53,184 nt of DNA. Origin: a virus. The notes under the pieces are model-generated. The model worked only from the letters and a program-made list of their open reading frames with translations. It made no database searches and was not told the origin of the DNA. The stretch lies in the IMG/VR virus record IMGVR_UViG_3300043570_000610, positions 1 through 53,184 of that record; one strand, 5' to 3'. The position numbers and the translations under genes were made by a program. Below are positions 1-47,865 of this stretch, in pieces. The number at the start of each line of letters is the position of its first letter. Within the stretch, counting starts at the first letter, position 1.

Positions 1-561
1 CTTGATCCAAGAGTTAAAATAATTCCATTACCAGAAGATGTCGATGGCACGTTCATTAAAATATGGATGTATGGATTAGAAGACTTAGGTGATGTTCTTT
101 ACTTTGACCTTGATATTAGAATACAAAAAAATGTTGATAATTTATGGAATTATCTTGACGAAACCCCTACAATATGCTATACATATTGGAAGGACATAAG
201 TTGGGTTGACCAAAAGGCACGTTCATATAGCGAACAATATCTTAGTAATTATAATTCAAGTGCTGTTCTGTGGCGTTCTGGTAGTCCAAAAGCAAAGGCA
301 ATATGGGAACACTTTGAAAAAGATGCCGATTACTATATGATTAAATATTGGGGCGACGATAGATTTTTGTGGCATGAAGACTTTGACTTCAAGTGGTTTC
401 CTAAGGGTGAGTTTTATTCGTTTCTCTATGGTGCAGACTACTATGACCCAGAGAAGCGAGTTGTAGATAGATATCGACCAGAATATACCGTTTGTTTATT
501 AAACGGATTAGACTATTTTCCAGGATATGATAAAAAATATGATGAACTTTCTAACAATTAA
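1..561 (+). CDS. Glycosyltransferase-like protein, copy 1 (5' end outside window)
   Basis: The reading frame is open from base 1, so the N-terminus lies outside the window; 186 residues are visible. An FDLDI-type segment (visible residues about 36-40) followed by IQKN resembles the DxD metal/nucleotide-sugar site of GT-A fold glycosyltransferases. A downstream NSSAVLW segment and an aromatic C-terminal part recur in the next three genes. It is the first of four tandem paralogs, each overlapping the next by a few bases, which implies co-transcription and translational coupling. A sugar-transfer role is inferred from the motif; donor and acceptor are unknown. Confidence is high for the gene and moderate for the function. 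Confidence 0.75.
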   Translation, partial: LDPRVKIIPLPEDVDGTFIKIWMYGLEDLGDVLYFDLDIRIQKNVDNLWNYLDETPTICYTYWKDISWVDQKARSYSEQYLSNYNSSAVLWRSGSPKAKAIWEHFEKDADYYMIKYWGDDRFLWHEDFDFKWFPKGEFYSFLYGADYYDPEKRVVDRYRPEYTVCLLNGLDYFPGYDKKYDELSNN

Positions 562-1297
562 ATGGGGTGACAAATACTCATCCGATTATGTGAACAATCT
601 ATATCACATGGTAAAAAAGAATTACACAGGAGAGTTTAGATTTATTTGTTATACGGATGATGCCTCTGATTTAGAGTGCGAAGTTCACCCTATTCCAGAT
701 GATGATTTACTACATCCAAAATACTATTTCGGAAAAGAAGCATTCTGTTTTGATAGAGCCAAGTTTTTAGTTTTTAATTCAGAAGAATGGCTAGATTGTG
801 AGCCAGAAGATAAGTTCTGCTACTTTGATTTGGATATAGTAATTCAAAGTAATATTGATGAGATTGATGCTCTAGCAGAAAAGCCTCGAATAATACATTG
901 TTTGTGGCAACCAGAAAATCAAATAGATGATAGGTTGTTTATCGAGACTAGAGGCACTTTCTTTAACTCTAGTATGATGCTGTGGTCATACGGCCAATGC
1001 CAACAAATATATTATGATGTCTATGAAAATAACGAAATAGTTTTCAAAACATTTTTTAAGGGCAGTGACAACTATCATTATTGGCGTCAACGAGAATTCT
1101 GGAAAAACATTCCCGATACATGGATATACTCTTGGAACAGAGGTCGATATTATCCAGATGATGTAGTGCGTTTCGAGTTTAGAGACGATGCCAAAATCTG
1201 CCTGTTCAATACAGATAATGTTCCCCATCCATCTGCAAAACAACATGTGGAACTAGCAGAATGTAATGATAAAAATATTGTTAGGTTGTGGAAATGA
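542..1297 (+). CDS. Glycosyltransferase-like protein, copy 2
   Basis: About 251 aa. The start at 542 gives MNFLTIKWG, which lines up with the KWGTKY N-termini of the neighbouring paralogs; ATGs at 527 and 539 are alternatives. It carries YFDLDIVIQ near residues 94-102 (DxD-like), then SSMMLWS and a WIYSWNRGRYYP-like C-terminal segment. The KWG N-terminus, DLD motif, SS...LW segment and W-x-YSxN segment occur in the same order in the sister genes, which defines one family. The gene overlaps the previous one by 20 bases. Membership of a GT-A family is inferred; the phage or host target is unknown. Confidence 0.75.
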   Translation: MNFLTIKWGDKYSSDYVNNLYHMVKKNYTGEFRFICYTDDASDLECEVHPIPDDDLLHPKYYFGKEAFCFDRAKFLVFNSEEWLDCEPEDKFCYFDLDIVIQSNIDEIDALAEKPRIIHCLWQPENQIDDRLFIETRGTFFNSSMMLWSYGQCQQIYYDVYENNEIVFKTFFKGSDNYHYWRQREFWKNIPDTWIYSWNRGRYYPDDVVRFEFRDDAKICLFNTDNVPHPSAKQHVELAECNDKNIVRLWK

Positions 1298-2112
1298 GAG
1301 TAAATTACGTTTGTTGTAAGTGGGGCACCAAATATGATGTCGAGTTTGTCAATCGACTTTATCGGATGGCAAAGAAACATACCCCAGATAATTTTGAGTT
1401 TCACTTCTATTGCTATACAGACAACAGTGAAGGTTTTGAAACCGAGATTAAAGTAATAGACTTCCCAGACATTCCCGACATACATCCGAAATACTGGTTT
1501 GGATCTGAAGATTTTAAATACGGCATGGCACGTTGTTGGGACAGACCAAAGACGTTCATCTTCAATACACACAACTTCGCAGACGATAAACCAACTGGAA
1601 GATTTGTCTTTTTCGACCTTGATGTTATCATTCAAAATGATTTGTCGCCAATCATCACTTATGACCTAGAGAACCCTACTAAGTTACGTTCGTGGTGGCA
1701 AGACCCTAGACCCATGAAGTCTCGTAACTTTAAGTTGTCACATGGTGCATATACGAACGGCAGTTGCATGGTGTGGTCAGATGACCAGACAGAATGTATT
1801 TGGCATGATGTCCTAGAACACCAAGAACGTATTTGGTTTACATTCACGGACGGAACAGACAACTATCATAGTTGGCGATGGGGTGACTTTAGTAACACTC
1901 CTTTGTGGAAACATTTCCCAAGCACATTTGCATATTCATATAACAGAGGCAGAGATTGGGCACAGTGCGATTTGCAAGTAGGCATATATAGAAAAGACTG
2001 CATATTATGTGTCTTCAATGTGGACTTACTTCCGTTTCAGGACAATAAACGTGGCAAAGTGAAGCAGGAATCCTTAGTTGATCCCGATTTGTTAGAGCAT
2101 TGGAATGTTTGA
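1294..2112 (+). CDS. Glycosyltransferase-like protein, copy 3
   Basis: About 272 aa and the longest of the four copies. The ATG at 1294 overlaps the TGA of the previous gene (ATGA), and an AGG at 1283-1285 serves as ribosome-binding site; the GTG at 1288 is less likely. Visible features are KWGTKYDVEFVNRLY at the N-terminus, FFDLDVIIQ near residue 107 (DxD-like), NGSCMVWS, and FAYSYNRGRDW near the C-terminus. The order matches the other copies, but the residues differ enough that this is an old duplication or an array of diverged homologs. The predicted activity is transfer of an activated sugar; the acceptor is unknown. Confidence 0.78.
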   Translation: MRVNYVCCKWGTKYDVEFVNRLYRMAKKHTPDNFEFHFYCYTDNSEGFETEIKVIDFPDIPDIHPKYWFGSEDFKYGMARCWDRPKTFIFNTHNFADDKPTGRFVFFDLDVIIQNDLSPIITYDLENPTKLRSWWQDPRPMKSRNFKLSHGAYTNGSCMVWSDDQTECIWHDVLEHQERIWFTFTDGTDNYHSWRWGDFSNTPLWKHFPSTFAYSYNRGRDWAQCDLQVGIYRKDCILCVFNVDLLPFQDNKRGKVKQESLVDPDLLEHWNV

Positions 2113-2795
2113 TGATTAATATTTACACGGTGAAGTGGGGAACAAAATATAGTTCTGATCATGTCAATAAAATACTTGAGCAATGCAAAAAGCACATCAC
2201 TACTGAGTTTAATTTTTATTGCCTGACTGAACAAACGATTGGGTTACACTCCGACGTTATTGTAATTCCTTTTCCAGAGGGTAACTATTATGAAAAGTGG
2301 TGGAACAAATTATACTTGTTTGAGAAACAAGTTGTTACGCAACAAGGAGAGAAACTATTTCTTGATTTAGATATAGTTATTCAGCGCAATATCGATTGCA
2401 TCGTAGACCATAACCCAGAAGATGGTTTAACATTTGTTCGCACTCACTGGCACAACCTAGAGAAAATGAAAGAAGATACGAAGGATACTCCTCGTATGTA
2501 TACAGACCTAAATTCAAGCGTGTTAAGATGGAATGATAACTTAGATGTCGATAGAATAACCAAATTCGTCAGAGATTATCCTGACCAAATGTTTTATTAT
2601 TATCGGGGCCTTGATAATCTTTTCGGTCACCAGAGAGAACGCCTTTTAAATATTGATTTTTTCCCAGATGGTTGGGTTTATAGTTATAACTATGGATACA
2701 TGTGGCCAATCGATACTAGAGAACATGTTCTAAGACCTGAACCACTTATTTGTTTATTCGATTCAATGGAAAGACCACAAGATGTTAAATTATAA
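2112..2795 (+). CDS. Glycosyltransferase-like protein, copy 4
   Basis: About 227 aa. The ATG at 2112 shares its A with the stop of copy 3 (TGATG), giving MINIYTVKWGTKYSS; an upstream TTG at 2100 is a poorer start. It has FLDLDIVIQRNID near residue 84, LNSSVLRW, and GWVYSYNYGYMW in the C-terminal part, the same block order as the sister genes. It is the shortest copy, with smaller loops between blocks. It overlaps the following methyltransferase-like gene by 14 bases. The DxD-type motif supports a GT-A glycosyltransferase, but no substrate can be inferred. Confidence 0.77.
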   Translation: MINIYTVKWGTKYSSDHVNKILEQCKKHITTEFNFYCLTEQTIGLHSDVIVIPFPEGNYYEKWWNKLYLFEKQVVTQQGEKLFLDLDIVIQRNIDCIVDHNPEDGLTFVRTHWHNLEKMKEDTKDTPRMYTDLNSSVLRWNDNLDVDRITKFVRDYPDQMFYYYRGLDNLFGHQRERLLNIDFFPDGWVYSYNYGYMWPIDTREHVLRPEPLICLFDSMERPQDVKL

Positions 2796-3438
2796 TTACT
2801 TAAATAACTATCGTTACTGGGGTGAAGGATTAGAAAAGATCAATCACGAACTGCCATGGAAACATGAAGACTTTCGTAAGTCTTTAAATGCGAATACCAT
2901 GGATGCTGCTATTTGGTTAGTCGAAGAACTATTGAAAGTGAAAGATCTTCCAAAAGAACTTAACATTACAATTCTAAATTCTTGGTTAGGGTTTCCTCTG
3001 GTACCATTACTTTGTGAAAATTTAAATGTCAAAAAAATCAATTTGATCGATATTGATAAAGATGCATTAGAATTATCAAAGGTGTTCAATCGTTACTATA
3101 GTGATAGCGGTGTAGAATTGGACCACATCAATTGGGATGTTCCTTTTGCATATCACGATATTAACGCAATAAATACTGATATAATTGTTTCTATTGGTTG
3201 TGAGACTATGTATCCATTGAAAAATTTAACTACTGCAAATAAAGATTGTATCTTTGCTTGTCAGTCATCTAATGTTTTTAAAGAGATGTATGGCATTAAT
3301 TGTGTCCCAACAATTGAAGAGCATGTTGAGAATGTTGGAATTACTGATGTTTTCTACGAGGGAAAGATTGAACAGTCTTATTGGTCATGGGATGGTAAAG
3401 TAGATTTCGATAGATTTATGGTTATAGGAAGGAAGTAA
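2782..3438 (+). CDS. Class I methyltransferase-fold protein
   Basis: 218 aa. A central segment with ITILNSWLGFPL and, about 20 residues on, INLIDIDKDALEL has the shape of Rossmann-like motifs I and II of class I SAM methyltransferases: a hydrophobic strand and loop, then an acidic residue ending strand 2. The glycine-rich loop is unusual (NSWLGF rather than GxGxG). A related protein lies at the other end of the window (51396-51959) with the same architecture: an N-terminal helix, the motif I-like loop, an acidic pair, and a C-terminal F/Y-R-F/Y-M strand. It is co-transcribed with the glycosyltransferase array. Methyl transfer is inferred and the substrate is unknown. Confidence 0.6.
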   Translation: MLNYNYLNNYRYWGEGLEKINHELPWKHEDFRKSLNANTMDAAIWLVEELLKVKDLPKELNITILNSWLGFPLVPLLCENLNVKKINLIDIDKDALELSKVFNRYYSDSGVELDHINWDVPFAYHDINAINTDIIVSIGCETMYPLKNLTTANKDCIFACQSSNVFKEMYGINCVPTIEEHVENVGITDVFYEGKIEQSYWSWDGKVDFDRFMVIGRK

Positions 3439-3439
3439 T

Positions 3440-4165
3440 ATGGGAAGAGCCAGAGTTGTTGCACCACCACCCGAGGATTATATCCCAGAACCTTTAGTAT
3501 CACTTCCACCAGAGCCAGTTGAAGTAGTTGTAGAAGAGTGGGTTGACGGAAACTTCCAAGAAGAAATTATTGAAGTTGAGATTAATGAACCCTCTCAAGA
3601 AGAACTTGATAGAGAAAAAATCGCGCAAGAAAAACATGAAGAATTGCAGAGACAGAAACTTGCCGTAGTAGAAGATGCGAGAGTAGCGGAAGAAACAATC
3701 GCACGAGCAAAAGAGATTATAGAAAACCCTCCTGTGAAAATTGAGACTGTAGTTGAAACAGTTATAGAAACCGTTCATATTACAGACCCAAAATTGGTAG
3801 AAGAATTACAAGTTCTTAAAGCAGCAAATGAAAAACTTATCGAAGAAAAAGATGCGGTAGAAAAGGCAAGAGAAGACCAGATTGTAAAAATGCGCCAACA
3901 AGCAACAGACAAGCAAGTCAGTCAGTTGAATATGGTGCAGGCAAGAAAACCTACTTTACTTAGTAAAGTAAAAGATTTCTTTCGACGCAGAAGAATCAAA
4001 CTTGCTACCGTTTCTCAGGCGAACTACGAACAGGCAATTATCTACCAAGCATCTGTTGCTGTTCCAAAGATGCTAGACGAAATTGAAAAGATGCATGAAA
4101 GTTTGACTATCTTAGAAGAACTTCTAGCGAAAAACAAAGAACGTCAAAAGATTAAAGTTCGGTGA
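3440..4165 (+). CDS. Coiled-coil protein of unknown function
   Basis: 241 aa with a good ribosome-binding site (AGGAAG about 7 bases before the ATG at 3440). The N-terminus is Pro/Val/Glu-rich (PPPEDYIPEPLV). Residues about 50-165 are a long Glu/Lys/Gln-rich helix with heptad character, probably a coiled coil. A basic patch (KDFFRRRRIKL) follows near residue 185 and a second helix ends the protein. It closes the + strand operon and overlaps the 3' end of the convergent oxygenase-like gene by 14 bases. It could be a structural or scaffold-like protein; I do not recognise a family. Confidence 0.65.
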   Translation: MGRARVVAPPPEDYIPEPLVSLPPEPVEVVVEEWVDGNFQEEIIEVEINEPSQEELDREKIAQEKHEELQRQKLAVVEDARVAEETIARAKEIIENPPVKIETVVETVIETVHITDPKLVEELQVLKAANEKLIEEKDAVEKAREDQIVKMRQQATDKQVSQLNMVQARKPTLLSKVKDFFRRRRIKLATVSQANYEQAIIYQASVAVPKMLDEIEKMHESLTILEELLAKNKERQKIKVR

Positions 4166-4799
4166 AATCTACACCCGTAATATCTTCAACCATTGATTTC
4201 CAGAGGTCCTCATGAGGAACGACATAACCGAGAGTGAGGCGCTTGCTGCGGCTACCAGCACAGTGATAGAAGACCTTATCGGCCTCGCTACGCCTACCGA
4301 AGTAGCCGACCTTGACCGACCATCCCTTGGGGTCCCAAAGAGTGACCATTTCTTTTGTTATTGGATCTAGATATCTAAAGTAGCCGCCATTCTCTTCTGT
4401 ATTATAAGAAAGAAGAATGTTGTGGCCGCTTGCATTCCAGTTTGTGTGCCAGCCCATAAATCCATTTTCTGGATAATAAACATGAACCGCATTGTTCTTA
4501 GCGCCAAGAAACGAAATTAATTCACGATTGAGTTTCTGTTGCTTTTCGCGGTGAGTGGTAGGAACAGTATCTACCATTCCGATATCACAACAGAAAGCAG
4601 TTTCTGGATAGCCTTCATGCTCTCCATCTTTGCTGACAATTTCATTCATATACTTTTCAGAAGTGCCGGTGTCGATATCAAATTGTCGGCGTCTATCCGG
4701 CTCTCTCAATTTGTCATGGTCGGTTTGTGAGAAGAACCAATCCGTATATGGTGTAAGGATTTCCAGAAGTTCTGGATTTATGTTACTGGAAACTTTCAT
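4152..4799 (-). CDS. 2OG-Fe(II) oxygenase-like protein with atypical HTN motif
   Basis: 215 aa. The C-terminal half reads like a double-stranded beta-helix oxygenase: YYPENGFMGWHTNW (H118, N120), a central LLSYNTEENGGYFRY strand pair, KVGYF, then FYHCAGSRSKRLTLGY with H179 and R187, the usual third iron ligand and 2-oxoglutarate-binding Arg. The expected HxD is HTN here, so the acidic iron ligand is replaced by Asn. That could mean altered metal binding, a halogenase-like arrangement or loss of activity. It is the last gene of the fibre operon, sharing one base with the upstream glycosyltransferase. This suggests a role in modifying virion proteins (inference). Confidence 0.6.
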   Translation of the reverse strand: MKVSSNINPELLEILTPYTDWFFSQTDHDKLREPDRRRQFDIDTGTSEKYMNEIVSKDGEHEGYPETAFCCDIGMVDTVPTTHREKQQKLNRELISFLGAKNNAVHVYYPENGFMGWHTNWNASGHNILLSYNTEENGGYFRYLDPITKEMVTLWDPKGWSVKVGYFGRRSEADKVFYHCAGSRSKRLTLGYVVPHEDLWKSMVEDITGVDFTEL

Positions 4800-5497
4800 T
4801 ATTTGTCTCTAACCCACGGTGGTAATGTATAGTGATAGATGACAATCTCTTGTCCCTGTAATTCTTCTTCTTTGTATCCAATTACAAAATTCCATCTTGC
4901 ATCAGGATCTGGAAACCTGCCCGTTCTAACACCAGTATTTCCATATGTCAATAGGCGCCACATTGTAAATGTGTCCCACTGCATTGCATCTGCTGGATAA
5001 TGTTGCCGGTCGTAGCCGGGTTCATTCTGACTACAATATTCTCCCCACCAAGAACTCATTAGTTTCAGTGTCTGTATATTATTACGGTATACAAAAAGAC
5101 CACAATGCTCGGTCATTTCTTCAGTCTCAGATAACTTTGTAAGAGCCGCGTTATATGGCCGATTTGCAGTAAACAAAACGTCTACATCATCTGGAATCTG
5201 ATTAAAGATTTTTTGAATGTCTTCGTGCCGAACTTCTGTATCACAGTCCATATAAACTGTCAAGTCATAAGGTGTTTTATCTAAAGCCCACAGCTTGGCT
5301 CTCTTATGATATGGAACATCATCTGTAATGACATTTTCAAAGATGTCATAGTCTTCTGGTTCCACCCATTCTGCATGAGTGAATAAAGTAATCTTTGCTT
5401 CTGGCCAATAGTCTAGAAGAGACAACGCCGAATTCTTAGCAGCGCGGTAGTAGCCTCTGCGTAAAGATGCTACGTAAACAAAACCATTATTTTCCAT
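4799..5497 (-). CDS. GT-A glycosyltransferase, family-8-like
   Basis: 232 aa. GFVYVASLRRGYYRAAKNSA at the N-terminus followed by YPEAKITLFTH-like strand order, and LTVYMDCDTEV with D84 and D86, match the nucleotide-sugar-binding strand and DxD metal motif of GT8-type (retaining, GT-A fold) transferases. It is unlike the four paralogs at 1-2795 outside the DxD. It overlaps the upstream hypothetical gene by 11 bases and the downstream oxygenase-like gene by one base. It is transcribed directly after the tail-fibre genes, so virion decoration is a plausible role; DNA or host-surface glycosylation are alternatives. Confidence 0.7.
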   Translation of the reverse strand: MENNGFVYVASLRRGYYRAAKNSALSLLDYWPEAKITLFTHAEWVEPEDYDIFENVITDDVPYHKRAKLWALDKTPYDLTVYMDCDTEVRHEDIQKIFNQIPDDVDVLFTANRPYNAALTKLSETEEMTEHCGLFVYRNNIQTLKLMSSWWGEYCSQNEPGYDRQHYPADAMQWDTFTMWRLLTYGNTGVRTGRFPDPDARWNFVIGYKEEELQGQEIVIYHYTLPPWVRDK

Positions 5498-5960
5498 CGC
5501 TCAATGCTTCTTCTGACTGAATCAACATAACGGTATAAGCCATAACTTCAAGCGCAGACTTTGATCTGCGTATCTTGGTCTTTAATGGCTTGTTGGTAGA
5601 ATTCTTGATAGTAGCAATTTCAAATGCTTCTAGTTTAGCCTCAAAAAGAGCCTCATCTTTGCGGCGTTGTTGATCTACCTTAGAGCGTTCCATGCGCTGG
5701 CGAACTTCTTCGGAGCGGCGCTCTTCTCTGCGACGAGTGTTCTCATCAATCTGTTCTTCGGTGAACTTTTCCATAATAGCAATGTAATCTGGATTATTGC
5801 CCTCACCCGACACGGATGCGGGCAATCTCTTACCATCTGGATAGATGATAATAACCATTACTTGCTTTAGTTCTTTATTTAACCAAAAGGGTTCGTCGTA
5901 GTCTTTAGTTTCTACTACTTCACCCGACGGTATAATTACCGTATCTTCATCCACAATCAT
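5487..5960 (-). CDS. Conserved phage protein of unknown function
   Basis: 157 aa with a GGAGAG ribosome-binding site just upstream of the ATG at 5960. The N-terminal half is beta-like and acidic (MIVDEDTVIIPSGEVV, with a DEPFWLNKE turn). Residues about 65-115 form a highly charged Glu/Arg-rich helix (RRREERRSEEVRQRME). The C-terminus is a basic patch plus a hydrophobic helix. It sits between the fibre gene and the glycosyltransferase in one operon. It might be a fibre-assembly chaperone or attachment protein because of its position; the sequence alone does not show this. Confidence 0.6.
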   Translation of the reverse strand: MIVDEDTVIIPSGEVVETKDYDEPFWLNKELKQVMVIIIYPDGKRLPASVSGEGNNPDYIAIMEKFTEEQIDENTRRREERRSEEVRQRMERSKVDQQRRKDEALFEAKLEAFEIATIKNSTNKPLKTKIRRSKSALEVMAYTVMLIQSEEALSDGK

Positions 5961-6004
5961 TCAACTCTCCATAAAAAGAAATAATATAAAGTATATAGTA
6001 TAGT

Positions 6005-7312
6005 TTAAGCGGTACGAATCCAAAGAGATACTGTTGATACTGTATCTTTAGTTGCTTGAATTGTATCGCCTGCATATGTGCCAGAATATGTTCCAGTATA
6101 AGTTCTGCTACCAGCATATGCACCGGTGTATGTACTTGAACCGGCAAAACTATTTGCATACGTACCAGAGTAAGTTCTGGAGCCAGAATAGTTCGCAGAA
6201 TATGTTCTGTCACCAGCAAATGCGCCAGCAAAGTTTGTCGCCGCCGAAACATAGCCCGCGTTAGCATATGTTCTAGTACCAGCAAACGTGCCGCCAACGA
6301 AACCACCAAAAAAGCGAGTATAGCTGGCTGAATATGTTCGTGATCCCGCAAACGGTCTAGTGCCAGAGAAGTTAGTCACGTAAGAACCCGTATATGTTCT
6401 AGTTCCGGAATACGTTGTGCTGTAAGTTCTGGTACCAGAAAAAGTATTTGTGTATCCCGCTGGTGTATACGTTCTAGTCCCAGCATATCCTACGTTAGAA
6501 TATGTTCTAGTACCACCATAGTCGCCGGTATAGTTTGCAGATGCGACTTGCTCACGGGTATCAGAAGCTGAACCCATGCTAACCCAAGTACCAGGAGATG
6601 GCGATGATGCTTGGATCTTATATGTACCAACACTGGTGCTGATAATACGATTTCTGAAATAAGGAATCATTTCCTGAATTTCAGTATCGGTCATTTGCTT
6701 TACGTTATTGCCGCTGTATGTCTTTAGTGGGCGAAGATCGGCATCAGGCGATGTTGTGGCCGCAGTCTTCTGCCAAATATAATAAGTTGTGTTGCCACCA
6801 TTTGCAACATCGGTAATGGTGTATCGTGAGGTCCATGTACCGCCACTTGGCGCCGAACCAGCAAGACGATACTGACCTGCAGTATACTCTGATTCAGTAA
6901 CCATTGCTGTTACCGCTTGGTCAATAATATCATTGCGGATCTGAGCATCTGTCATTTGCTGAATTGCAGCGTCATATTGCAGCGGACGATTTGTTATTGT
7001 ACCTGCATCTTCAGCAGTAATTTGCTTTGCATAATACGTTACAGTGGTTATAGCACCAGTAGCAGGGTGTGTGCCAGTCGCTTCGTCCCGATCTGTATCA
7101 ACAAATGTGCCGATTGCGGTACCAGAAAGTGCGTTTGCTGTATCAATATTGAGGTCGGCGGTGTTAGAACCATTACCTACTGCACCGGCAAATCCTACTG
7201 TGATCTTATTAGCAATATAATTTTTAACTTCCGCATTTGACATGGTTTGCAAACCCTGAAAGTTTGCAGAAGTAATCGGTGTAGTAGATGCTTTGAGCTT
7301 TAAAGGGTTCAT
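6005..7312 (-). CDS. Repeat-containing tail fibre protein
   Basis: 435 aa. The N-terminal half holds three imperfect modules, each beginning with a helix of the type MSNAEVKNYIANKIT, MTDAQIRNDIIDQAV or MTDTEIQEMIPYFRNRI followed by beta segments. Residues about 258-418 are a tandem repeat built on G(T/S)RTY(S/T) with a 9-14 residue spacing, rich in Gly, Thr, Tyr, Ser and Ala; this looks like a repetitive beta fold such as an elongated fibre. The short C-terminus ends SLWIRTA. It lies at the distal end of the baseplate block, next to modification enzymes. Fibre or receptor-binding function is inferred from position and composition. Confidence 0.7.
   Translation of the reverse strand: MNPLKLKASTTPITSANFQGLQTMSNAEVKNYIANKITVGFAGAVGNGSNTADLNIDTANALSGTAIGTFVDTDRDEATGTHPATGAITTVTYYAKQITAEDAGTITNRPLQYDAAIQQMTDAQIRNDIIDQAVTAMVTESEYTAGQYRLAGSAPSGGTWTSRYTITDVANGGNTTYYIWQKTAATTSPDADLRPLKTYSGNNVKQMTDTEIQEMIPYFRNRIISTSVGTYKIQASSPSPGTWVSMGSASDTREQVASANYTGDYGGTRTYSNVGYAGTRTYTPAGYTNTFSGTRTYSTTYSGTRTYTGSYVTNFSGTRPFAGSRTYSASYTRFFGGFVGGTFAGTRTYANAGYVSAATNFAGAFAGDRTYSANYSGSRTYSGTYANSFAGSSTYTGAYAGSRTYTGTYSGTYAGDTIQATKDTVSTVSLWIRTA
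6050..6540 (-). repeat. Degenerate tandem repeat encoding GTRTY motifs
   Basis: Within the fibre gene, the + strand shows recurrent blocks such as TATGTTCTAGTACCA, TAAGTTCTGGAGCCA and TATGTTCTGTCACCA at intervals of roughly 30-45 bases, at least a dozen times. They encode the G(T/S)RTY repeats. Synonymous and non-synonymous differences between copies show that the array is not recent, but its structure could permit slippage and length variation. Confidence 0.75.
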
Positions 7313-7323
7313 TTTCTATAACC

Positions 7324-7806
7324 TTAATTTAGTCTTGTGCCGCTTGAATTAAATACCAACAGAGGTGTCAGTGAATACCAATCTGTAGCATCCTTAGCAA
7401 CAAAAGTAGCAGATGAACCAGCAGCTACCGTGATAGCAACGTTAACCGTTCCACCGTTAATCTTGTCTGATACGTTTGGATAAACTAGAAGATTTGTTGC
7501 AGTAGTATTAACAACTGTATAAGTCAACGAGGCTTCGGCTGTTGGAAGTTTAACACCTGCTCCAGAACCCACTGTAGTGATAATATTATAAACATCCGAA
7601 AGTTCTGTTGCACCAGACTGGTTTGTTCCTGCCGCAGAAACAGTAGCCGAGATGGAAGGCTTTAGGTCGCCCGTTAGAGTAAGATTACCAAACGTAGGAT
7701 TGTCACCCGATTGATACTTATCAGTATTAAGATTGTTGAAGTTATTATCAACTTCGGTATTTGTAAGAGGTGACCCCTTTACGGATCTAAGTATAACTGT
7801 GGCCAT
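7324..7806 (-). CDS. Short tail fibre / virion structural protein
   Basis: 160 aa. The N-terminus MATVILRSVKGSPLTNTEVD, followed by NNFNNLNTDKYQ, is the hallmark start I know from marine myovirus fibre and structural proteins. A Thr/Ala/Val/Gly-rich beta region follows (residues about 45-150), typical of a beta-sandwich fibre tip. It starts four bases after the upstream 77-aa gene ends. A TATAAATA octamer lies about 70 bases upstream (7877-7884), so it may have its own late transcript. Trimerisation and receptor contact are inferred from the family type. Confidence 0.7.
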   Translation of the reverse strand: MATVILRSVKGSPLTNTEVDNNFNNLNTDKYQSGDNPTFGNLTLTGDLKPSISATVSAAGTNQSGATELSDVYNIITTVGSGAGVKLPTAEASLTYTVVNTTATNLLVYPNVSDKINGGTVNVAITVAAGSSATFVAKDATDWYSLTPLLVFNSSGTRLN

Positions 7807-8043: not shown

Positions 8044-11000
8044 TTATACCTGAAGAGCTATTGCGCGAAGTTCGCGGCATTTTGGAACAACACTAGTTTT
8101 GTCCGAAAGAAGAACTACCTTAACTGCAAAAGTTTTGTAGCCAGTATAAGTCACACCGTCAGTTGTATATTCCAATACACCATCACCATTCAATTCCGTT
8201 GATGGAATATCATATGTATACTCAACAAAACTGGAAGAAGTAACTGTGGGTGGAGTAGTTGTTAATTCAATCCACTCTTTTTCTTCAAACGGGGCTGGGT
8301 CACTTTGATGTAGGAATCTGCCATATACCTTTACGTCTGTTCCATTTGGAACATACTGACTTAGATATACTCTAAGGTCTTCTGCTTCCTGTCCATCATC
8401 TAGAACAACTTGACGAGAAACATATTTCGATCTCGCATCACCGATACCAAATTCTTCATCGGCCGCATCATTATTAACATCGTTTGCGATTGCAATCATA
8501 GAACATTTTCTAAGATCAATAACAGGCGAAACAGTAGACGTTTGGGATCTCATACCAAGTTGAATTTTAAACGACTTGTCTCCATCGAGATCGTTTTGCT
8601 CATTTGAATATGAACGAATAGCAGCATCGATGGTCAATTCCGTCGTTTTATCTGGCACAAAATTCTCATATGTTGTCGATGCTTCTGTTTCGGAACCAGT
8701 ATTTGTCGTGGCAGAATATGAAAAAATGAGTTGGCATGGAGTATGATCCATATATGCAAGATTGGCACCCAATGCATTCAACACTTTATCTTCAAGTTCT
8801 GCTATTAGAGCATGAGAAGAGCCGTTGCCTACTCGGTCGTTTACAGCGAAGTTTCCGCTCTCAACATAGATCTTAGCAACGTTGTATAGAGTATCGTAAG
8901 TATGAGCAAAGCCGGAATTGAGAGTAGCACCGATATTTGCATTCGATCCACCAGTCATAGTCAAAGTTGGATTGCTGGTGTATCCAGCGCCGGGATTTGT
9001 CACTGCTACATTAGTCACTGCGCCACCGGTAACAGTAACTGCAACCGTAGCATTCGTTCCGCCCGTGGCTATTCCACCACTTAATGTGCGGGCGACAACT
9101 GTTGCAACTGTGTATGTTAGACCTGTTAGCGTGCCAGCAGTAGTTACAATTGCAACATCAGCTTGAGTTGTTAGTGTGAATCCAGTAACAGCGCCAACCG
9201 AACCTGTAACAGCAGAAACCTTATAGACAGTTCCTGTGGCATACCCAGATATTGTAGCAGTACCACCCAGAGTACCAGTGATAGTTATAAGATCACCAAC
9301 AACAAGTTTCGAAGCACCGCAAGTAAACTGGCCTGCAGTTCCAGAAACAGCCACAGTAGCAACAAGGGCACTACCATAACCAGTGCCTGCGTTGATTATA
9401 TTAAACGAGAATCCATGAATTTTATCACCAGGAGAAAATTCAGAACTTGAGAAAGAATCAAATTTTGCGTAATCGATATCATGTGTATTCAGTGCGACCG
9501 TACCAGTTGTGTCGATTTCAAAGTTTGCTCTCTGTAAACTAAACTTAATATCTTCTGCCTGCCATGCGGTCCAAGTTCTGTTGTTCGCAGATGTGAATAA
9601 AACACCGACATTAGGCTGTTCTGAAATACGAGTTGTTGTGTTGAGTTGGTCTTCGCCCAATTCAGACACCCAAATTTCATAGTTAGGGTCATTACCCGCA
9701 GGAAGAAGAACAAAACAATATTCAGTATTGTTTTGCAAGAATACTGGCGACGGGAAAGTAAACTTAGTTGACGTAGCACCATTTTCGGCATCGATGTTTA
9801 CCTGACCAGGAGATAGTGTTACTTCACCAAAAGGAATTACTCTATCACCCGGATAACCATTTATGACTTCGCGGAGTTGCATCGTGATAGGATTTGTCAA
9901 AGATTTTTTCTTAAAGAAAACATCCAGTGAGGTCACATAACATCCAAACGGCACTTCCGAAACTATAAACGTCTGAGCGATTGGATCCATTCTCCAGCGC
10001 ATAAAGTCTGTTGGGAATATAAAGTCATCAAATACGACTTCTGCTGCCGGCTGAACAATCGGCGAAGGGTCAGGAGCAGTTGGCGGAGTGACATTAGTTA
10101 CCTCAGTGACGTTATTAGTTACCTGAGTGATATTCGTATTATTTACTTCCTGAGTTACCTGAGTAACTTCTGTAACATTTGTGGTGTTATTAATTGTTGT
10201 AAATGTATTATTTACAACTGTTGTTTGAACAACACCCACTGCTCTTTCACCAAGACGATTTACCGTGGTATTGCTATCAGAAACCGATCTACTATCTGAG
10301 AGATTCACTGCTGCCACGTTGGCAACTCTTGTCGAGATTACAGTATCTTGGACACTTTGTGATAAACCATTTGCAGAGAATGTCATTGATGCAGAGGTAG
10401 TAATAAACTTAGCTCTATTTTTAGAATCATCTGCAAGTCTGAATAGCTTTTCTCCAACACGGAAAGTACCAGCAGGAATTCTGAATTGACCAAAGCATTC
10501 ACCCGATGCATTCGTGATTAGCGGATCGCCATAATCACCAGTTGCTAGGGATGAGTTTTGAACAGAATTTGTTGTGCCACTAACAATACCAGACAGTGGA
10601 CGACAATGATCCTCAACAGTAGCGCCATCAAAGAATGGATAAACACGAGAAAGCGGCTTCATTCTCGTTGCTTTAAACGTTACTATAATAGAACGCATAA
10701 ACGGAATAATAGAAGTATTTGTTACTCTAGGACCAATTCTCTGAGTTTGCGTTTCCGGTGTTACCGAGAGTTGGACGCCTTGGCGAGTTTGTCTTTGTTC
10801 TGTTGTAGTCGTTACAATAGCAATATCTTCTTGGAAAAGAGTATCGCCTCGTATTGCAGTGTTACCTGCCGCAGCCTGTGTATTTGTAGAAACTCTACCA
10901 GTTCCGGTATCTTGCCAATCTTCCCACTGGGTACCCCATGCATCGGCAAGAGTTTCCCATGCATCATAGTTACCATCAAAGTTAGCAGAAATATCAGGAA

Positions 11001-14000
11001 GTGTTGCGGTATCGGTCCAGTTATCGACTGGTGGGTCAAGTTCCATATCACCGATATATGTGAACAGAAGTTCACCGGTGCAATTACGGAACTTAGATGC
11101 TTGCAACTGGCTTATCATCGTATATTCTACATACGGCAGTGTCAGTAGATCACCAGTTTTTGTAATGTTAGTGGAGTTTGTTGAATCGTATTGTAGATCC
11201 ACATTTTCCATAAAGAAAAATGGACGCATTTCTTTTGCGGTAGGATCGATAGCAATATGGTATTCATTACTTAAAACATTACCAACATTATGACCAGTGA
11301 AAGCATCCACAAGAATACCATTCTTGAAGCGGTCTAAGCCATTGGTATCTGTAATGCTTAAATCACTGGCAGATTTTTCCAGTAGATTTAGAGATGTATA
11401 ATATTCAAGTCGATTTAGTCGCTGTTCTAATTGGCCGATATCCCGCATTGTATAGCGACGATTATCAATCGATTTATACTTAACGCCATAGTCGGTTCTA
11501 CTCACCGACTTAGCAACGCTGGGTGCCAGCGAAGGATATGGAGGAATATCCACAATCGCAATAGACAGAGAATTCTCTGGTTCTATCGGTTCAACGGGAG
11601 ATAAGGAAGAGACACCATATACAGAGGAGAATACACCCTCGTCGTCCATAACAATTCTATCTTTACGTCCTAGATAATACTCAATGTCTGTAGTAAATTG
11701 TTCTGTCGGGAAAGGCGTAATAATTGCAAGACCAGTAGGACCACTTGGTGAAGAACCTACTGCAGGATTAACTGTCGCTGAGCCAGGACTTGTAGTGAAT
11801 GTAATAGTATCATCCCAGCGAGGACGAAAATCTAGTGTGTCGCGAAGATCATATGTGACCCCGGAGGTTGTAGAGGTATAAATTGGAATTTGTTCTGTGC
11901 GAATTTTACCCGCAGGTGTCGTTTCGTCATCTACAGGATATGAATCAACAGTGTAGAAGTTGTATACAGTAGATGGAGAACCGCCATGAGTAAAGTAGTC
12001 AAATGTCACAACCAACTTTTTGTCTGTTAGCGTAAGACTTGTACCCGGCTTTTTTACAATTCTGGCGTTTGCGTAGAAGCCGTCTCGTTGACCAGTATCG
12101 AAGTTGAACAGCGAAGTTACATCTGTTCCGTCTGCCTGAATATCTGCCGCGGTCTCATCGAAATCACCAATCTTTACCGTGCGAAGTTTGTAACCATCAG
12201 ACGCACCCAAATTATATGTGCCTGTAGTGTTGCCACTATCTTCGGTATCCAGAACAACTACTGCGCTTTCTTTAAGTTCCTTAGTTACTTTATTTGCGTT
12301 AGCAACTTGTACCTTACAGTGAACGCGAATGTTTGTGGCCGCGCTGATTGCTCCAGGGAAAGTTACTGTAATCTGTGTTCCGGTATTAGTTACAGTTACA
12401 CTAGCAGTAGATTGTAGATTTAATACTGAACCTATTTCATATGCCACACTATTAATAGTGCAAGCGGCTTTTGTGGTAACAATAATATTATCAAGAATTT
12501 CTGTGTTAGTCAGTGTTCCAACTGTAAACGGAAAACTCTCGGGTGAACTTACCGAGAATGTAATAGTGTTGCTGCTATCAATAGTGTCATCAAACTGTTT
12601 GTTGTAGACAAAACTATTGTCAACCGAAACAGGATTTGTAGTCTTTAATGCTCTAGCAGGAAACTTGAAAAGAAGGCTGTTGAACTTACTCTCGTATAGG
12701 TATGCTTTACTATCTACCAGAACAACGTTTGCATGGCCGTCGGCGGTTGTATCGTAGTAAACGCCCGCAACATCTTCAAAGTTATATGAAGATGTCATTT
12801 GAATGTCGTAGAGATACATACGGAATTGCGTATTATATGCGCCAGGTGTACCAGTCTCGTGAACGATATGACGAACTCTAGCTGTGCCGATTTGTGATCC
12901 TGGTGCCGCCGTGGCAGATTGTGTGCCACCCGTTGGAGAGCCGGATGTGCCAATCGCATTCGCGGCGGTGTCACGAAGAGACACTGTATCCCCGGCTGCA
13001 ATATCCCAGTTACCGCAGAAGTTGTCAACTAGAATATAGCTACCAAATGCAGTAGAGATAGGAACTTCATTTACAACCTTAGTTGTATTTCCTTTTGGAA
13101 CAACTATATATTCTGTTTGTCTGGTTTCGTATGCATAACCGCGAACATATGCTTTACCGGCTTCGATACCAATTGCTAAAAGCGTCTCATCACCGCCCGC
13201 TGCGGGGGTGGTCGCATTGTATGGTATTAGACCATTATTAGTTCCTGTGTCAAGGTGTTCTTTGATTAAAATAGGAAACGCTTTTACAGTATAGTTGCCC
13301 GATTCATCGAAAGTGCGTTTTGCAAGATTGCGACCAAGGTCTGCATAAATGCGGTCTTCGCTCACAACATTTTGTAACTTACCACCAACAATTGATATAT
13401 ACTCTGAGAAACCGTCGTCTGGCGTGGCATCTAGCGCATATTTTGCAAGAGATGCTGTTGTTACATATCTATCGGCACCAGGCGCTGCATAGTTAAATGT
13501 ACCCTGTGCAGGATCCAAAAGATCGGGGTCAGTTTCATGTGTAACAATACTTTCTACAATCTCGAACCCAACTCTAAAGTAAGGGTATGAATTATATTTT
13601 AGTAGTTCGAGAGTAGTTTTAGTAAAAGGAAGAAACTTACCATCTAGAAAAATAATACCATCATCTAGAGTTACGAATGACCCTCTACCATAATAATAAT
13701 TACCTTCTTCGAAAGTATCATCAACTACAAAAGTATCAGTAACTTGATCGCCGGTTTCAGATTCTATTACACGAATTGTTTCACCTGGAGAAAAGTGAAC
13801 TGCGTCCGTCGATCCATCGCCCGTAAGATATCTCAAATAAAGTGTGTTAAGATCAGGTGAGTCAGCTTCCGAGCCGCCGCTGGCATAAATAATTTCTGCT
13901 TGTATCGAAGATGTTAAGCCAATTACTTTAGCCCCAACATAATCTTCAATATTTTCAATCAAAAATCCAGAAGCATCTTCGTCAAGGACTTTAATGAAGT

Positions 14001-14244
14001 CTCTTGCGGTATCCAGTTTGAACTCACAACCAGCAACTACCGAACCATTTTTAAAAACATGGCTGCCGAATTTTCCAACCTGATCTTGAAGAATGGTTTG
14101 AAGTTGTGTTAGTTCTCTTGCCTGAACAGCATAACCCGGCTTGAACAGAATTCTATTATAGTTTTTTGCAATCGCACCTTTCGACGGGTCCAACGGGACA
14201 TAAGAATCGTCAAAATACGGGGGTACATTTAAGTCCAAGGCCAT
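8044..14244 (-). CDS. Giant baseplate/fibre structural protein, DUF4815-type
   Basis: 2066 aa, in the position of T4 genes 9-12 after gp8. The N-terminus (FDDSYVPLDPSKGAIAKNYN, then ILFKPGYAVQARELTQLQTI) is characteristic of the DUF4815-type structural proteins of marine T4-like phages. It is mostly beta-rich. Residues about 1340-1395 are a low-complexity NVTEVTQVT-like run of Asn, Val and Thr, probably a fibrous stalk, followed by a Pro-rich hinge. Residues about 1650-1790 hold a GxGY beta module also seen in gp7-like and gp8. The C-terminal part (about 1790-2066) looks like a beta-sandwich. It probably forms the baseplate-proximal fibres that replace T4 gp9-gp12. Confidence 0.8.
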   Translation of the reverse strand: MALDLNVPPYFDDSYVPLDPSKGAIAKNYNRILFKPGYAVQARELTQLQTILQDQVGKFGSHVFKNGSVVAGCEFKLDTARDFIKVLDEDASGFLIENIEDYVGAKVIGLTSSIQAEIIYASGGSEADSPDLNTLYLRYLTGDGSTDAVHFSPGETIRVIESETGDQVTDTFVVDDTFEEGNYYYGRGSFVTLDDGIIFLDGKFLPFTKTTLELLKYNSYPYFRVGFEIVESIVTHETDPDLLDPAQGTFNYAAPGADRYVTTASLAKYALDATPDDGFSEYISIVGGKLQNVVSEDRIYADLGRNLAKRTFDESGNYTVKAFPILIKEHLDTGTNNGLIPYNATTPAAGGDETLLAIGIEAGKAYVRGYAYETRQTEYIVVPKGNTTKVVNEVPISTAFGSYILVDNFCGNWDIAAGDTVSLRDTAANAIGTSGSPTGGTQSATAAPGSQIGTARVRHIVHETGTPGAYNTQFRMYLYDIQMTSSYNFEDVAGVYYDTTADGHANVVLVDSKAYLYESKFNSLLFKFPARALKTTNPVSVDNSFVYNKQFDDTIDSSNTITFSVSSPESFPFTVGTLTNTEILDNIIVTTKAACTINSVAYEIGSVLNLQSTASVTVTNTGTQITVTFPGAISAATNIRVHCKVQVANANKVTKELKESAVVVLDTEDSGNTTGTYNLGASDGYKLRTVKIGDFDETAADIQADGTDVTSLFNFDTGQRDGFYANARIVKKPGTSLTLTDKKLVVTFDYFTHGGSPSTVYNFYTVDSYPVDDETTPAGKIRTEQIPIYTSTTSGVTYDLRDTLDFRPRWDDTITFTTSPGSATVNPAVGSSPSGPTGLAIITPFPTEQFTTDIEYYLGRKDRIVMDDEGVFSSVYGVSSLSPVEPIEPENSLSIAIVDIPPYPSLAPSVAKSVSRTDYGVKYKSIDNRRYTMRDIGQLEQRLNRLEYYTSLNLLEKSASDLSITDTNGLDRFKNGILVDAFTGHNVGNVLSNEYHIAIDPTAKEMRPFFFMENVDLQYDSTNSTNITKTGDLLTLPYVEYTMISQLQASKFRNCTGELLFTYIGDMELDPPVDNWTDTATLPDISANFDGNYDAWETLADAWGTQWEDWQDTGTGRVSTNTQAAAGNTAIRGDTLFQEDIAIVTTTTEQRQTRQGVQLSVTPETQTQRIGPRVTNTSIIPFMRSIIVTFKATRMKPLSRVYPFFDGATVEDHCRPLSGIVSGTTNSVQNSSLATGDYGDPLITNASGECFGQFRIPAGTFRVGEKLFRLADDSKNRAKFITTSASMTFSANGLSQSVQDTVISTRVANVAAVNLSDSRSVSDSNTTVNRLGERAVGVVQTTVVNNTFTTINNTTNVTEVTQVTQEVNNTNITQVTNNVTEVTNVTPPTAPDPSPIVQPAAEVVFDDFIFPTDFMRWRMDPIAQTFIVSEVPFGCYVTSLDVFFKKKSLTNPITMQLREVINGYPGDRVIPFGEVTLSPGQVNIDAENGATSTKFTFPSPVFLQNNTEYCFVLLPAGNDPNYEIWVSELGEDQLNTTTRISEQPNVGVLFTSANNRTWTAWQAEDIKFSLQRANFEIDTTGTVALNTHDIDYAKFDSFSSSEFSPGDKIHGFSFNIINAGTGYGSALVATVAVSGTAGQFTCGASKLVVGDLITITGTLGGTATISGYATGTVYKVSAVTGSVGAVTGFTLTTQADVAIVTTAGTLTGLTYTVATVVARTLSGGIATGGTNATVAVTVTGGAVTNVAVTNPGAGYTSNPTLTMTGGSNANIGATLNSGFAHTYDTLYNVAKIYVESGNFAVNDRVGNGSSHALIAELEDKVLNALGANLAYMDHTPCQLIFSYSATTNTGSETEASTTYENFVPDKTTELTIDAAIRSYSNEQNDLDGDKSFKIQLGMRSQTSTVSPVIDLRKCSMIAIANDVNNDAADEEFGIGDARSKYVSRQVVLDDGQEAEDLRVYLSQYVPNGTDVKVYGRFLHQSDPAPFEEKEWIELTTTPPTVTSSSFVEYTYDIPSTELNGDGVLEYTTDGVTYTGYKTFAVKVVLLSDKTSVVPKCRELRAIALQV

Positions 14245-43301: not shown

Positions 43302-44735
43302 TTATGAAAAGACTTTCACGCCATATTTCGCTTCAAAATCATCAGCATCTTTAAAGTTATTCACCATCGGCATACCCTTGATATTGAGACTTGTATTCAA
43401 TAGCATTGGACAACCAGTTTCTTCATACCACCTACTAAGAAGGGCATATAGTCCCGGGTGTTGCTCTTTTGTCACAGTTTGGACGCGAGATGTCCCATCA
43501 GCATGAACAATAGCAGGAAACTGATCAGGATATTTACATCTTGAAGTATATTGCATATAAGGGGAGTCTTCCCATGACATTTCAAAGTAGTCTCGCGCAC
43601 GTCCTGCCAGAATGACTGGAGCAAATGGGCGAAATTTTTGACGCTTTTTAATAGCATTTACTTTATCCTTAATGTCATGACCTCTTGGATCAGCTAGAAG
43701 GCTGCGATTACCTAATGCTCTAGGGCCGAATTCTGCTTGACCATTTGCAACACCTACTATACCAGTCTTATGCAATTCTGTCAAGAGTTTTTCTACCGGA
43801 TATTCTCCTCCCATATCTGCGCCGAGATATGGACCCTTCCATTTCAATTTTTGTCTGTTGTTAGCTGCAATCGCACCCAAGGAACTTCCTGCATCACCCG
43901 GATTTGGCATAATCCAAACGTTCTTGAAGTATTTTCTAGCAAGATGATTTGCAGAACAGTTTAACGCACAGCCACCCATAAGAACAAGATTATCTTGTGC
44001 GGCATCTTTCATTTTTGCTCGTATCAGAAGTTTTTCGAATTCTTCTTCATAGACTTTTTGAGTTGCCGCAGCGACACTATAAATGTCCAGGTCTCCGTCA
44101 TCTGGCCGCCACCAGCGACATCCACGATGCAGGTTCTCAGATTTCCAAAGATTTTTTACTTCATCATAATACTTTCCAGGATCACCATATGCTACCATTC
44201 CCATTAAGATATATTCGTCTTCATTGGGCTTTAACCCAATTCTATCTGTCATAGCAGAATAGAACAGACCCAAAGACTTAGGATAGTCCATAGACCATTT
44301 CTTTTTGAGTTTACTACCAGAGCATTTCCAGATTGACGCAGTATCGAATTCACCGATAGCATCAATAACAAGAGCGGTTGCATTATCATACGGCGAAGTA
44401 TAGAAGCCAGCCGCGGCATGTGATTCATGATGAAATGCAAATTCTACCGGAATATCTTTTAGTCCGAAAGCAGCAAGATATTGTCTAACGCTAAATCTAA
44501 CCATGCCCTGACCCGCAAGCAATCGTCTCATAGCTCTAAGTTTAGGTTTTTCATACCAGTGAATTTTTTCTGGTTTACCAAACATCAATGCCGCGCGAAT
44601 TAAATCTACATTCAAGTCTTTGTCATTTTTGATACCCGAATACCGTTCAGCATGAGAAGCAAATAAAATTTCACTTCCATCAACTACTGTCAAAGATGCA
44701 TCATGTGCTGCTGCGGATATACCCCATTCAATCAT
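43302..44735 (-). CDS. NodU/CmcH/TobZ-type carbamoyltransferase
   Basis: 477 aa. MIEWGISAAAHDASLTVVDG, FHHESHAAAGFYTSPYDNAT, LVIDAIGEFDTASIW and GLFYSAMTDRIGLKPNEDEY form the Kae1-like N-terminal domain. GGCALNCSANH, the EFGPRALGNRSLLADPR motif and KFRPFAPVIL mark the C-terminal half, as in NodU-type O-carbamoyltransferases. These enzymes move carbamoyl from carbamoyl phosphate, via carbamoyl-AMP, to a hydroxyl group on a sugar or nucleoside. Members of the family have been reported to carbamoylate 5-hydroxymethylcytosine, so a DNA-modification role is possible, as is sugar decoration. The ATG overlaps the 34-aa gene by 8 bases. Confidence 0.85.
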   Translation of the reverse strand: MIEWGISAAAHDASLTVVDGSEILFASHAERYSGIKNDKDLNVDLIRAALMFGKPEKIHWYEKPKLRAMRRLLAGQGMVRFSVRQYLAAFGLKDIPVEFAFHHESHAAAGFYTSPYDNATALVIDAIGEFDTASIWKCSGSKLKKKWSMDYPKSLGLFYSAMTDRIGLKPNEDEYILMGMVAYGDPGKYYDEVKNLWKSENLHRGCRWWRPDDGDLDIYSVAAATQKVYEEEFEKLLIRAKMKDAAQDNLVLMGGCALNCSANHLARKYFKNVWIMPNPGDAGSSLGAIAANNRQKLKWKGPYLGADMGGEYPVEKLLTELHKTGIVGVANGQAEFGPRALGNRSLLADPRGHDIKDKVNAIKKRQKFRPFAPVILAGRARDYFEMSWEDSPYMQYTSRCKYPDQFPAIVHADGTSRVQTVTKEQHPGLYALLSRWYEETGCPMLLNTSLNIKGMPMVNNFKDADDFEAKYGVKVFS

Positions 44736-46908: not shown

Positions 46909-47865
46909 TTATATCTTTTCTTTGCTTATCATAAAATCTGTTCCACAAAAGCAAAGTTTCTGGTTACAAATAACTCCCTTGGTTGGAAGTTGGTAATCCG
47001 CATGGTCGTTGATATGAAACATATATCCGCCCTGAAGACAATTCGCAACCTGGACATGTCCAGACCAAGAGACAAACAAACTTTCCAATCCTGCTGCACA
47101 ATACCATCCAGCAAACTTATTATCACCTTCAGTAATATATTTATTTGACTGTCCATTATATTCTACCGAACCATCGTCGAAATAAAAGTCAGACATCATG
47201 GACGAGTATTTGAAGTTTGGATTTACAATCGACGGATCATAATTCATTTCTTTTCTTGGAATTGACATTAGAATACTTTCCTGCTCGGGCGTATAGGTTT
47301 CTCCAACGTTTGTTGCTCTCGCTTGTTCAGGAAGAACTCTTACTGCTTCTACTGCAATCTCAGGAATTTCACAACAACGTTGATACATTTCATATGCTTT
47401 GTCCCAATATCTAGAATCCATCATGATTCTAACAGTTACTAAAGTTTGCTTTGATGCAACCTTTACCTTCTCTAAAAATTCTGGGTCTTCATAACTTGGA
47501 TGATAACTAAAGCATATATAACTAAATTTTTGGGCAATTTTTTCCCAATATTTTATAGGTTTTACACCATTTGTAGTTAAACCAATAGTATTATTCTTAC
47601 TCGTATAGAAAATGTCTACCAATTCTTTAAAGAACGGACTCAGTGTCGGTTCACCGCCGCTGATAGTGCAATGTATCTTTGGGTAGTGGTCAATGAGTCG
47701 ATAGATAAATTCTTTTGCACGCTCCCATTCATAGTGGTGATTCTTACCAGAATTCAATATTGGTGGACAATACGCGCAACGATTATTACAAATATTATTA
47801 ATAATCCACGTAAGCAACATTACATTTTCTGTTTGCTGTATTTTTATTAATTTCTTATCCATCAT
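46909..47865 (-). CDS. Radical SAM enzyme with C-terminal Cys-rich region
   Basis: 318 aa. WIINNICNNRCAYCPP holds the CxxxCxxC cluster site (C26, C30, C33). TISGGEPTLSPFF is the GGE SAM-binding motif, followed by LTTNGVKP and FSYHPSYEDPEF, the usual TIM-barrel order. After residue 250, GWYCAAGLESLFVSWSGHVQ, ANCLQGG and VICNQKLCFCG add five or more Cys, a SPASM/twitch-like auxiliary cluster. Such enzymes often modify peptides or sugars. The ATG shares bases with the upstream stop (ATGA). Confidence 0.85.
   Translation of the reverse strand: MMDKKLIKIQQTENVMLLTWIINNICNNRCAYCPPILNSGKNHHYEWERAKEFIYRLIDHYPKIHCTISGGEPTLSPFFKELVDIFYTSKNNTIGLTTNGVKPIKYWEKIAQKFSYICFSYHPSYEDPEFLEKVKVASKQTLVTVRIMMDSRYWDKAYEMYQRCCEIPEIAVEAVRVLPEQARATNVGETYTPEQESILMSIPRKEMNYDPSIVNPNFKYSSMMSDFYFDDGSVEYNGQSNKYITEGDNKFAGWYCAAGLESLFVSWSGHVQVANCLQGGYMFHINDHADYQLPTKGVICNQKLCFCGTDFMISKEKI

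Follow-up and report, generated by a model that had tools for sequence, protein, structure and literature searches.

The window, a stretch of 53,184 nucleotides taken from a 53-kb IMG/VR virus record (IMGVR_UViG_3300043570_000610), is part of the genome of an aquatic T4-like phage, with genes for a single-strand binding protein, a DNA end protector and baseplate wedge proteins, and it carries on its minus strand a set of four genes (hereafter the cassette) that may serve to modify a tail fibre. Read along that strand, these are FIB (7312-6005), which encodes a 435-aa repeat fibre; HYP (5960-5487), a 157-aa coiled-coil-like protein; GT (5497-4799), a 232-aa GT-A-type glycosyltransferase-like protein; and OXY (4799-4152), a 215-aa protein with a predicted double-stranded beta-helix fold of the prolyl-hydroxylase type. 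A first-pass annotation of this DNA had described the span 7312-4152 as four genes with overlapping ends. All four open reading frames (ORFs) were found on the minus strand at the coordinates it gave, while the overlaps were found at two of the three junctions: GT and OXY share 1 nt, HYP and GT share 11 nt, and FIB and HYP are separated by a gap of 44 nt. The cassette is located downstream of the baseplate wedge genes and of a 2066-aa large protein (8044..14244, minus strand; PHROG 358, function unknown) lying between those genes and the fibre region. Scans for promoters (11 versus 12.1 by chance) and terminators (3 versus 3.2) gave no excess and so set no transcript boundaries.

FIB begins with a conserved N-terminal region containing repeated Q-M-T-D-like motifs (residues ~1-255), continues into an aromatic and glycine repeat (~256-413) and ends in a short C-terminal tail. 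The GTRTY-type repeat region (6074..6547, minus strand) is composed of 158 residues, including 32 T, 26 G, 23 Y, 20 S, 11 R, 2 P and no K. The repeat character noticed in the first-pass annotation is non-random: FIB contains ten [GS]-x-R-[TP]-[YF] units, compared to a mean of 0.10 and a maximum of 2 in 2000 composition-preserving shuffles, and ten matches to G[TSD][RS]TY, compared to a shuffle mean of 0.03. By its position after the baseplate wedge genes, its repetitive architecture and its conserved ends, FIB is classed as a phage tail fibre. The shortest fibre of the family has 312 aa (L284) and the longest 3347 aa (phage C48C1), and an aromatic-dense region was present in 96/96 dereplicated fibres of at least 300 aa. 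The pooled composition of the repeats (48,876 residues) was 15.0% G, 14.8% Y, 13.4% T, 9.4% S, 7.6% N, 7.2% R, 2.4% P and 0.3% K; Arg is common in the repeats of the window fibre and of the C48C1 clade and low in many other fibres, and Pro reaches 8-14% in some fibres only. In the 3347-aa fibre of C48C1 (L160:4645-14688), long stretches of Y/F-x-G and Thr/Ser-Arg repeats are broken by non-repetitive inserts, which may be separate domains, and some relatives have two fibre paralogues ahead of HYP. Synechococcus phage S-RIM2, matched by the repeat of another family fibre (L226), was considered as a counter-example with similar repeats and no adjoining cassette; it was rejected, as its L-T-G-N-V repeat lacks aromatics and the match is confined to the repeat region.

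To assess conservation, six IMG/VR scans were made (queries: OXY, GT, FIB, an OXY alignment, the C48C1 OXY and a divergent OXY) together with one further scan of bacterial and archaeal genomes, and the ORFs at each locus were labelled with profile hidden Markov models. Each scan comprises the best 80 loci at most, so the loci are not unbiased samples. Among 233 OXY-centred loci, 223 had at least 300 nt of sequence upstream of OXY, and 222 of these carried GT there; with at least 1300 nt, both GT and HYP were present in 204 of 206 loci, and with at least 2000 nt, FIB, HYP and GT were present together in 185 of 186; the order FIB-HYP-GT-OXY was correct in every locus having all four genes (199/199). 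One exception (L281) lies on a contig that starts ~300 nt before its GT. The sole exception that a contig end does not explain (L314) is an OXY paralogue (L314:7977-8612) between tail-tube-like and UvsY-like genes, as assigned by gene order and likeness to C48C1, and the same contig separately holds FIB-HYP-GT-OXY. The pattern was the same from the other genes: OXY was present in all of the best 80 GT-centred loci (80/80), and the HYP-GT-OXY trio in 37/37 FIB-centred loci with room, the other 4 of 41 being too short. Long records (82-172 kb, C48C1 included) have exactly one GT-family gene in 22/22 cases, always adjoining OXY; their OXY-family genes number one to three per record. The cassette is kept at OXY identities down to 26%. 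The first-pass annotation had proposed co-occurrence in related phages as a check, and conservation of the enzymes in phages lacking the fibre as evidence to the contrary; the former is borne out by these counts, and among the loci scanned there was no phage with the cassette enzymes and without a fibre of the FIB family. The association of the enzymes with the fibre is thus well supported. In six loci (L041, L053, L059, L298, L302 and L246) there is an extra ORF or a longer gap between GT and OXY; the ORFs found there, read individually in the five loci other than L053, encode a protein of 191 aa, one of 227 aa with an FDVDGTLT motif that we take to be HAD-like, and one of 71 aa that is presumably glutaredoxin-like. 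Two phage contigs (L313 and L314) come from bacterial assemblies labelled Bifidobacterium breve and Sphingobacteriales, labels that are likely binning artefacts.

Among named phages, the cassette was found in C48C1 alone (OQ984149.1, Kyanoviridae), in which CDS0201-0204 follow the order FIB, HYP, GT, OXY and are all annotated as hypothetical. In the clade of the window, a convergently oriented block lies opposite the cassette and contains a coiled-coil gene, a methyltransferase-like gene and a set of GT-like genes. These flanking genes do not adjoin the cassette in C48C1 or its closer relatives, where an annotated tail assembly chaperone gene precedes the fibre. Since the order persists despite the changed flanks, the unit outlasts its surroundings. 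A 160-aa upstream neighbour (7324..7806, minus strand) is kept in the window's clade, does not adjoin the cassette in C48C1 and is outside the conserved unit. Mirror-distance correlation over 52 loci was 0.944 for OXY-FIB versus 0.878 for OXY-BIG; this excess of OXY, GT and FIB over BIG is modest and counts as weak evidence. Common descent within one operon would by itself be expected to produce some linkage.

OXY had been called 2-oxoglutarate (2OG) oxygenase-like, which is supported at the level of the predicted fold and not by Pfam. None of 40 OXY members matched a relevant Pfam family even with E allowed to rise to 1, the gathering score for 2OG oxygenase/prolyl 4-hydroxylase being missed, and a profile search of PDB sequences returned nothing meaningful; a PHROG label of 'DNA endonuclease V' (E 0.18) was dismissed as chance. 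An AlphaFold (AF2) model built with an alignment of 68 homologues scored a pLDDT of 93.1 and a pTM of 0.89. Its eight core strands (102-109, 113-118, 125-133, 139-144, 151-155, 159-167, 178-183 and 187-194) are read as a predicted double-stranded beta-helix of the prolyl-hydroxylase type. Using Foldseek, the best PDB match of the model was Pseudomonas prolyl 4-hydroxylase (P4H; 4j25_F, E 1.5e-5), with human PHD2 also found, and nearly all of the 47 PDB chains at E <=0.001 were prolyl hydroxylases. In VIA comparisons the best match was PHD2 (3oui; Z 11.3, rmsd 3.7, 146 aligned residues), and PiuC (9qn4_A) was matched with Z 10.5 and rmsd 3.0 over 143 residues.

The putative iron site of OXY consists of a proximal motif, H118-T-N120 (4440..4448, minus strand), in which Asn replaces the expected iron-binding Asp or Glu, and a distal His, H179 (4263..4265, minus strand), 61 residues past H118. 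In the model H118 closes strand II, H179 opens strand VII and R187 (4239..4241, minus strand) is the first residue of strand VIII, the last one, where it supplies the basic residue expected of 2OG oxygenases and is the probable binder of the 2OG carboxylate. W117, H118, N120, H179 and R187 are invariant in 68/68 aligned rows. In PHD2 we take H313 and H374, which are also 61 residues apart, to be iron ligands; a further PHD2 ligand, D315, is named in the title of one VIA structural match. All three OXY-family proteins of C48C1 carry Asn at the iron motif. The invariant His-x-Asn (HxN) site is the surprising part of the finding, and a literature search, with coverage short of most subscription journals, found a description neither of an HxN 2OG oxygenase nor of the FIB-HYP-GT-OXY cassette.

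GT was described in the first-pass annotation as GT8-like. A DxD motif (D84-C-D86; 5240..5248, minus strand) has both Asp residues invariant in 24/24 members, as is a C-terminal His (H222) that we take to be the metal His, and these features agree with a GT-A glycosyltransferase (GT8 or GT2), GT8-like as such having weak support from sequence. Pfam hits on the same 24 members were all sub-threshold (Glyco_transf_2 in 7/24, best E 0.0039; Glyco_transf_8 in 4/24, best E 0.0049), the window GT stayed below the Pfam gathering score (15.6 bits versus a cut-off of 23.3), and a profile search of PDB sequences returned nothing meaningful. GT is therefore likely of GT-A type from its sequence, while membership of GT8 is not established. 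HYP of the window had no Pfam or PHROG match; given its position, it is probably a fibre chaperone or adaptor.

Taken together, the comparative evidence leads us to favour, with modest confidence, the reading that FIB-HYP-GT-OXY is a maturation cassette dedicated to oxidation and glycosylation of the fibre. FIB would be produced as a repeat fibre, with HYP, encoded alongside, acting as its chaperone or adaptor. OXY, a small soluble oxygenase using iron, 2-oxoglutarate and O2, would oxidise side chains in the aromatic and glycine repeats, a role suggested by the prolyl-hydroxylase fold and the invariant H118, N120, H179 and R187. GT, as a metal-dependent GT-A-type transferase, would add sugar to the repeats, either on native Ser, Thr or Tyr or on a hydroxyl made by OXY. 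As only 0.3% of pooled repeat residues are Lys, Lys is excluded as a general target; Pro is unlikely, as it is not universal in the repeats. A collagen-like model (Gly-X-Y with Lys or Pro acceptors) is disfavoured by, and was rejected on, the composition of both the window repeat and the pooled repeats. Among residues common to the clades, Tyr, Thr, Ser or Asn appear to fit best as candidate targets. Hydroxylation plus glycosylation of the fibre, as first hypothesized, thus agrees with the gene association and the fold of OXY, while as chemistry it stays a hypothesis, the iron site of OXY having no canonical carboxylate. A more specific proposal, that a His-x-Asn...His oxygenase oxidises the aromatic and glycine repeats before its partner GT glycosylates them, and that this would make the oxygenase a subclass of its own within the 2OG oxygenase fold and the system a phage pathway of virion hydroxylation and glycosylation widespread in uncultivated T4-like phages, is put forward only tentatively.

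Several observations weigh against a fibre-modifying role. The first concerns catalysis: OXY departs from the canonical HxD/E...H iron triad, and position 120 is Asn (WHxN) in 149/149 distinct homologues, including a WHNN variant in L236. With HxN in place of HxD/E in every homologue, OXY could be a catalytically dead oxygenase fold that, with HYP, helps to bind or assemble the fibre, with no hydroxylation involved. We regard this as rather improbable, since the invariance of both His residues, the last-strand Arg and the Trp before H118 would be unusual for a dead enzyme, and because a carboxylate-free site is not necessarily dead. According to the portion of one report consulted, human AspH is a real hydroxylase that has two His and no carboxylate among its ligands, and variants of it with a single His stay active (PMC10947486).

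The second point concerns substrate: the OXY family is not used solely with fibres. Besides its cassette copy, C48C1 has two OXY paralogues elsewhere in its genome (L161:18267-18920 and L161:40130-40804). One is flanked by the tail tube and UvsY genes, the other precedes a NifU-like gene, and neither is accompanied by a GT of the cassette family; the tail-tube-linked type recurs in L314, and the paralogues likewise have HxN. These paralogues would suit a division of labour in which GT and OXY are both real enzymes with different substrates, GT acting on the fibre and OXY on either a small molecule or a virion protein other than the fibre. Each genome nevertheless keeps one OXY copy adjoining its single GT, and we consider separate substrates quite unlikely. 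Third, the proximity of the genes in a structural operon may come partly from shared ancestry, as the scanned phages are apparently one broad T4-like group and BIG co-varies as well (r 0.88). Finally, the class of GT is built on sub-threshold Pfam hits and motifs, and a profile comparison of GT with the neighbouring array of GT-like genes gave no significant link.

That array belongs to the convergent block adjoining the cassette (67-4165, plus strand), which is conserved across the window's clade. Four GT-like ORFs belong to it, one of them cut off and the others complete (67-561, 527-1297, 1288-2112 and 2100-2795; the last matches a PHROG 1962 glycosyltransferase with E 4.6e-9). The block also has a methyltransferase-like ORF (2782-3438) and a coiled-coil ORF (3440-4165), the latter ending in a 14-nt overlap with the end of OXY. 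The presence of these other GT-like genes is consistent with the main rival explanation, in which GT modifies the host surface (lipopolysaccharide, LPS), for example to block superinfection, and merely shares an operon with the fibre. In the same direction, a survey of related pelagimyophages, as far as the text consulted goes, reads glycosyltransferases in a fibre-containing host-recognition island as LPS-modifying, with GT8 the commonest family there (PMC7029224). The island of that survey is described in the same text as hypervariable and nonsyntenic (PMC7029224), whereas the cassette GT is fixed between HYP and OXY after the fibre, and an obligate partnership with OXY and HYP would be unexpected for an LPS enzyme. 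We thus give host-surface modification a low probability, comparable to that of a dead OXY.

Elsewhere in the window, on the minus strand, there are a Nol-like carbamoyltransferase (43302-44735) and three radical SAM-type ORFs (46909-47865, 48811-50073 and 50066-51355), all with PHROG matches. In TET/JBP pathways, base hydroxylation is followed by glucosylation. A hydroxylase paired with a glycosyltransferase matches the logic of such a pathway, and together with the carbamoyltransferase and radical SAM genes it raises the idea that OXY and GT hypermodify phage DNA. The cassette is always in the tail-fibre operon, however, and the structural matches of OXY, among the matches listed, are mainly protein hydroxylases (PHD2 and P4H); DNA hypermodification is accordingly judged very improbable.

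If fibre-dedicated oxidation and glycosylation is the true role of the cassette, many uncultivated T4-like phages would use enzymes of their own to decorate the fibres with which they recognise hosts. Host range, adsorption and evasion of defences could be affected, and an annotation would be gained for four genes that are at present called hypothetical. The OXY family would also provide a conserved natural test of oxygenase function with Asn replacing the iron-binding carboxylate. C48C1 is the obvious test organism; compared to the window, it has the same gene order, a fibre ~eight times longer and the two extra OXY paralogues.

Among known systems, the prolyl-4-hydroxylase/PHD2/PiuC class has in common with OXY the eight-strand double-stranded beta-helix of the model, two His at matching 61-residue spacing and the last-strand Arg. 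OXY differs from this class by His-x-Asn versus His-x-Asp and by having no Pfam match, its identity to these proteins is ~10-18% among the matches listed, and the FIB repeats, its putative targets, are not generally proline-rich. GT shares with GT8 and GT2 glycosyltransferases of the GT-A fold the DxD motif, the C-terminal His and sub-threshold Pfam hits, and it differs by falling below the gathering score. Own glycosyltransferases of mycobacteriophages have been proposed to decorate capsids (PMC11256854); the structure concerned is the capsid there and the tail fibre here, and the portion of that source consulted mentions no oxygenase partner (PMC11256854). A further likeness is to mimivirus L230, a collagen lysyl hydroxylase and hydroxylysyl glucosyltransferase that, with R699, acts on a viral collagen-like repeat protein, as described in the consulted part of one report (PMC9546862). 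Both systems would combine a viral hydroxylase and a glycosyltransferase with a viral repeat protein. L230 is one bifunctional protein that modifies Lys of collagen-like repeats, as far as that part of the report goes (PMC9546862), whereas the cassette comprises two proteins and repeats nearly without Lys.

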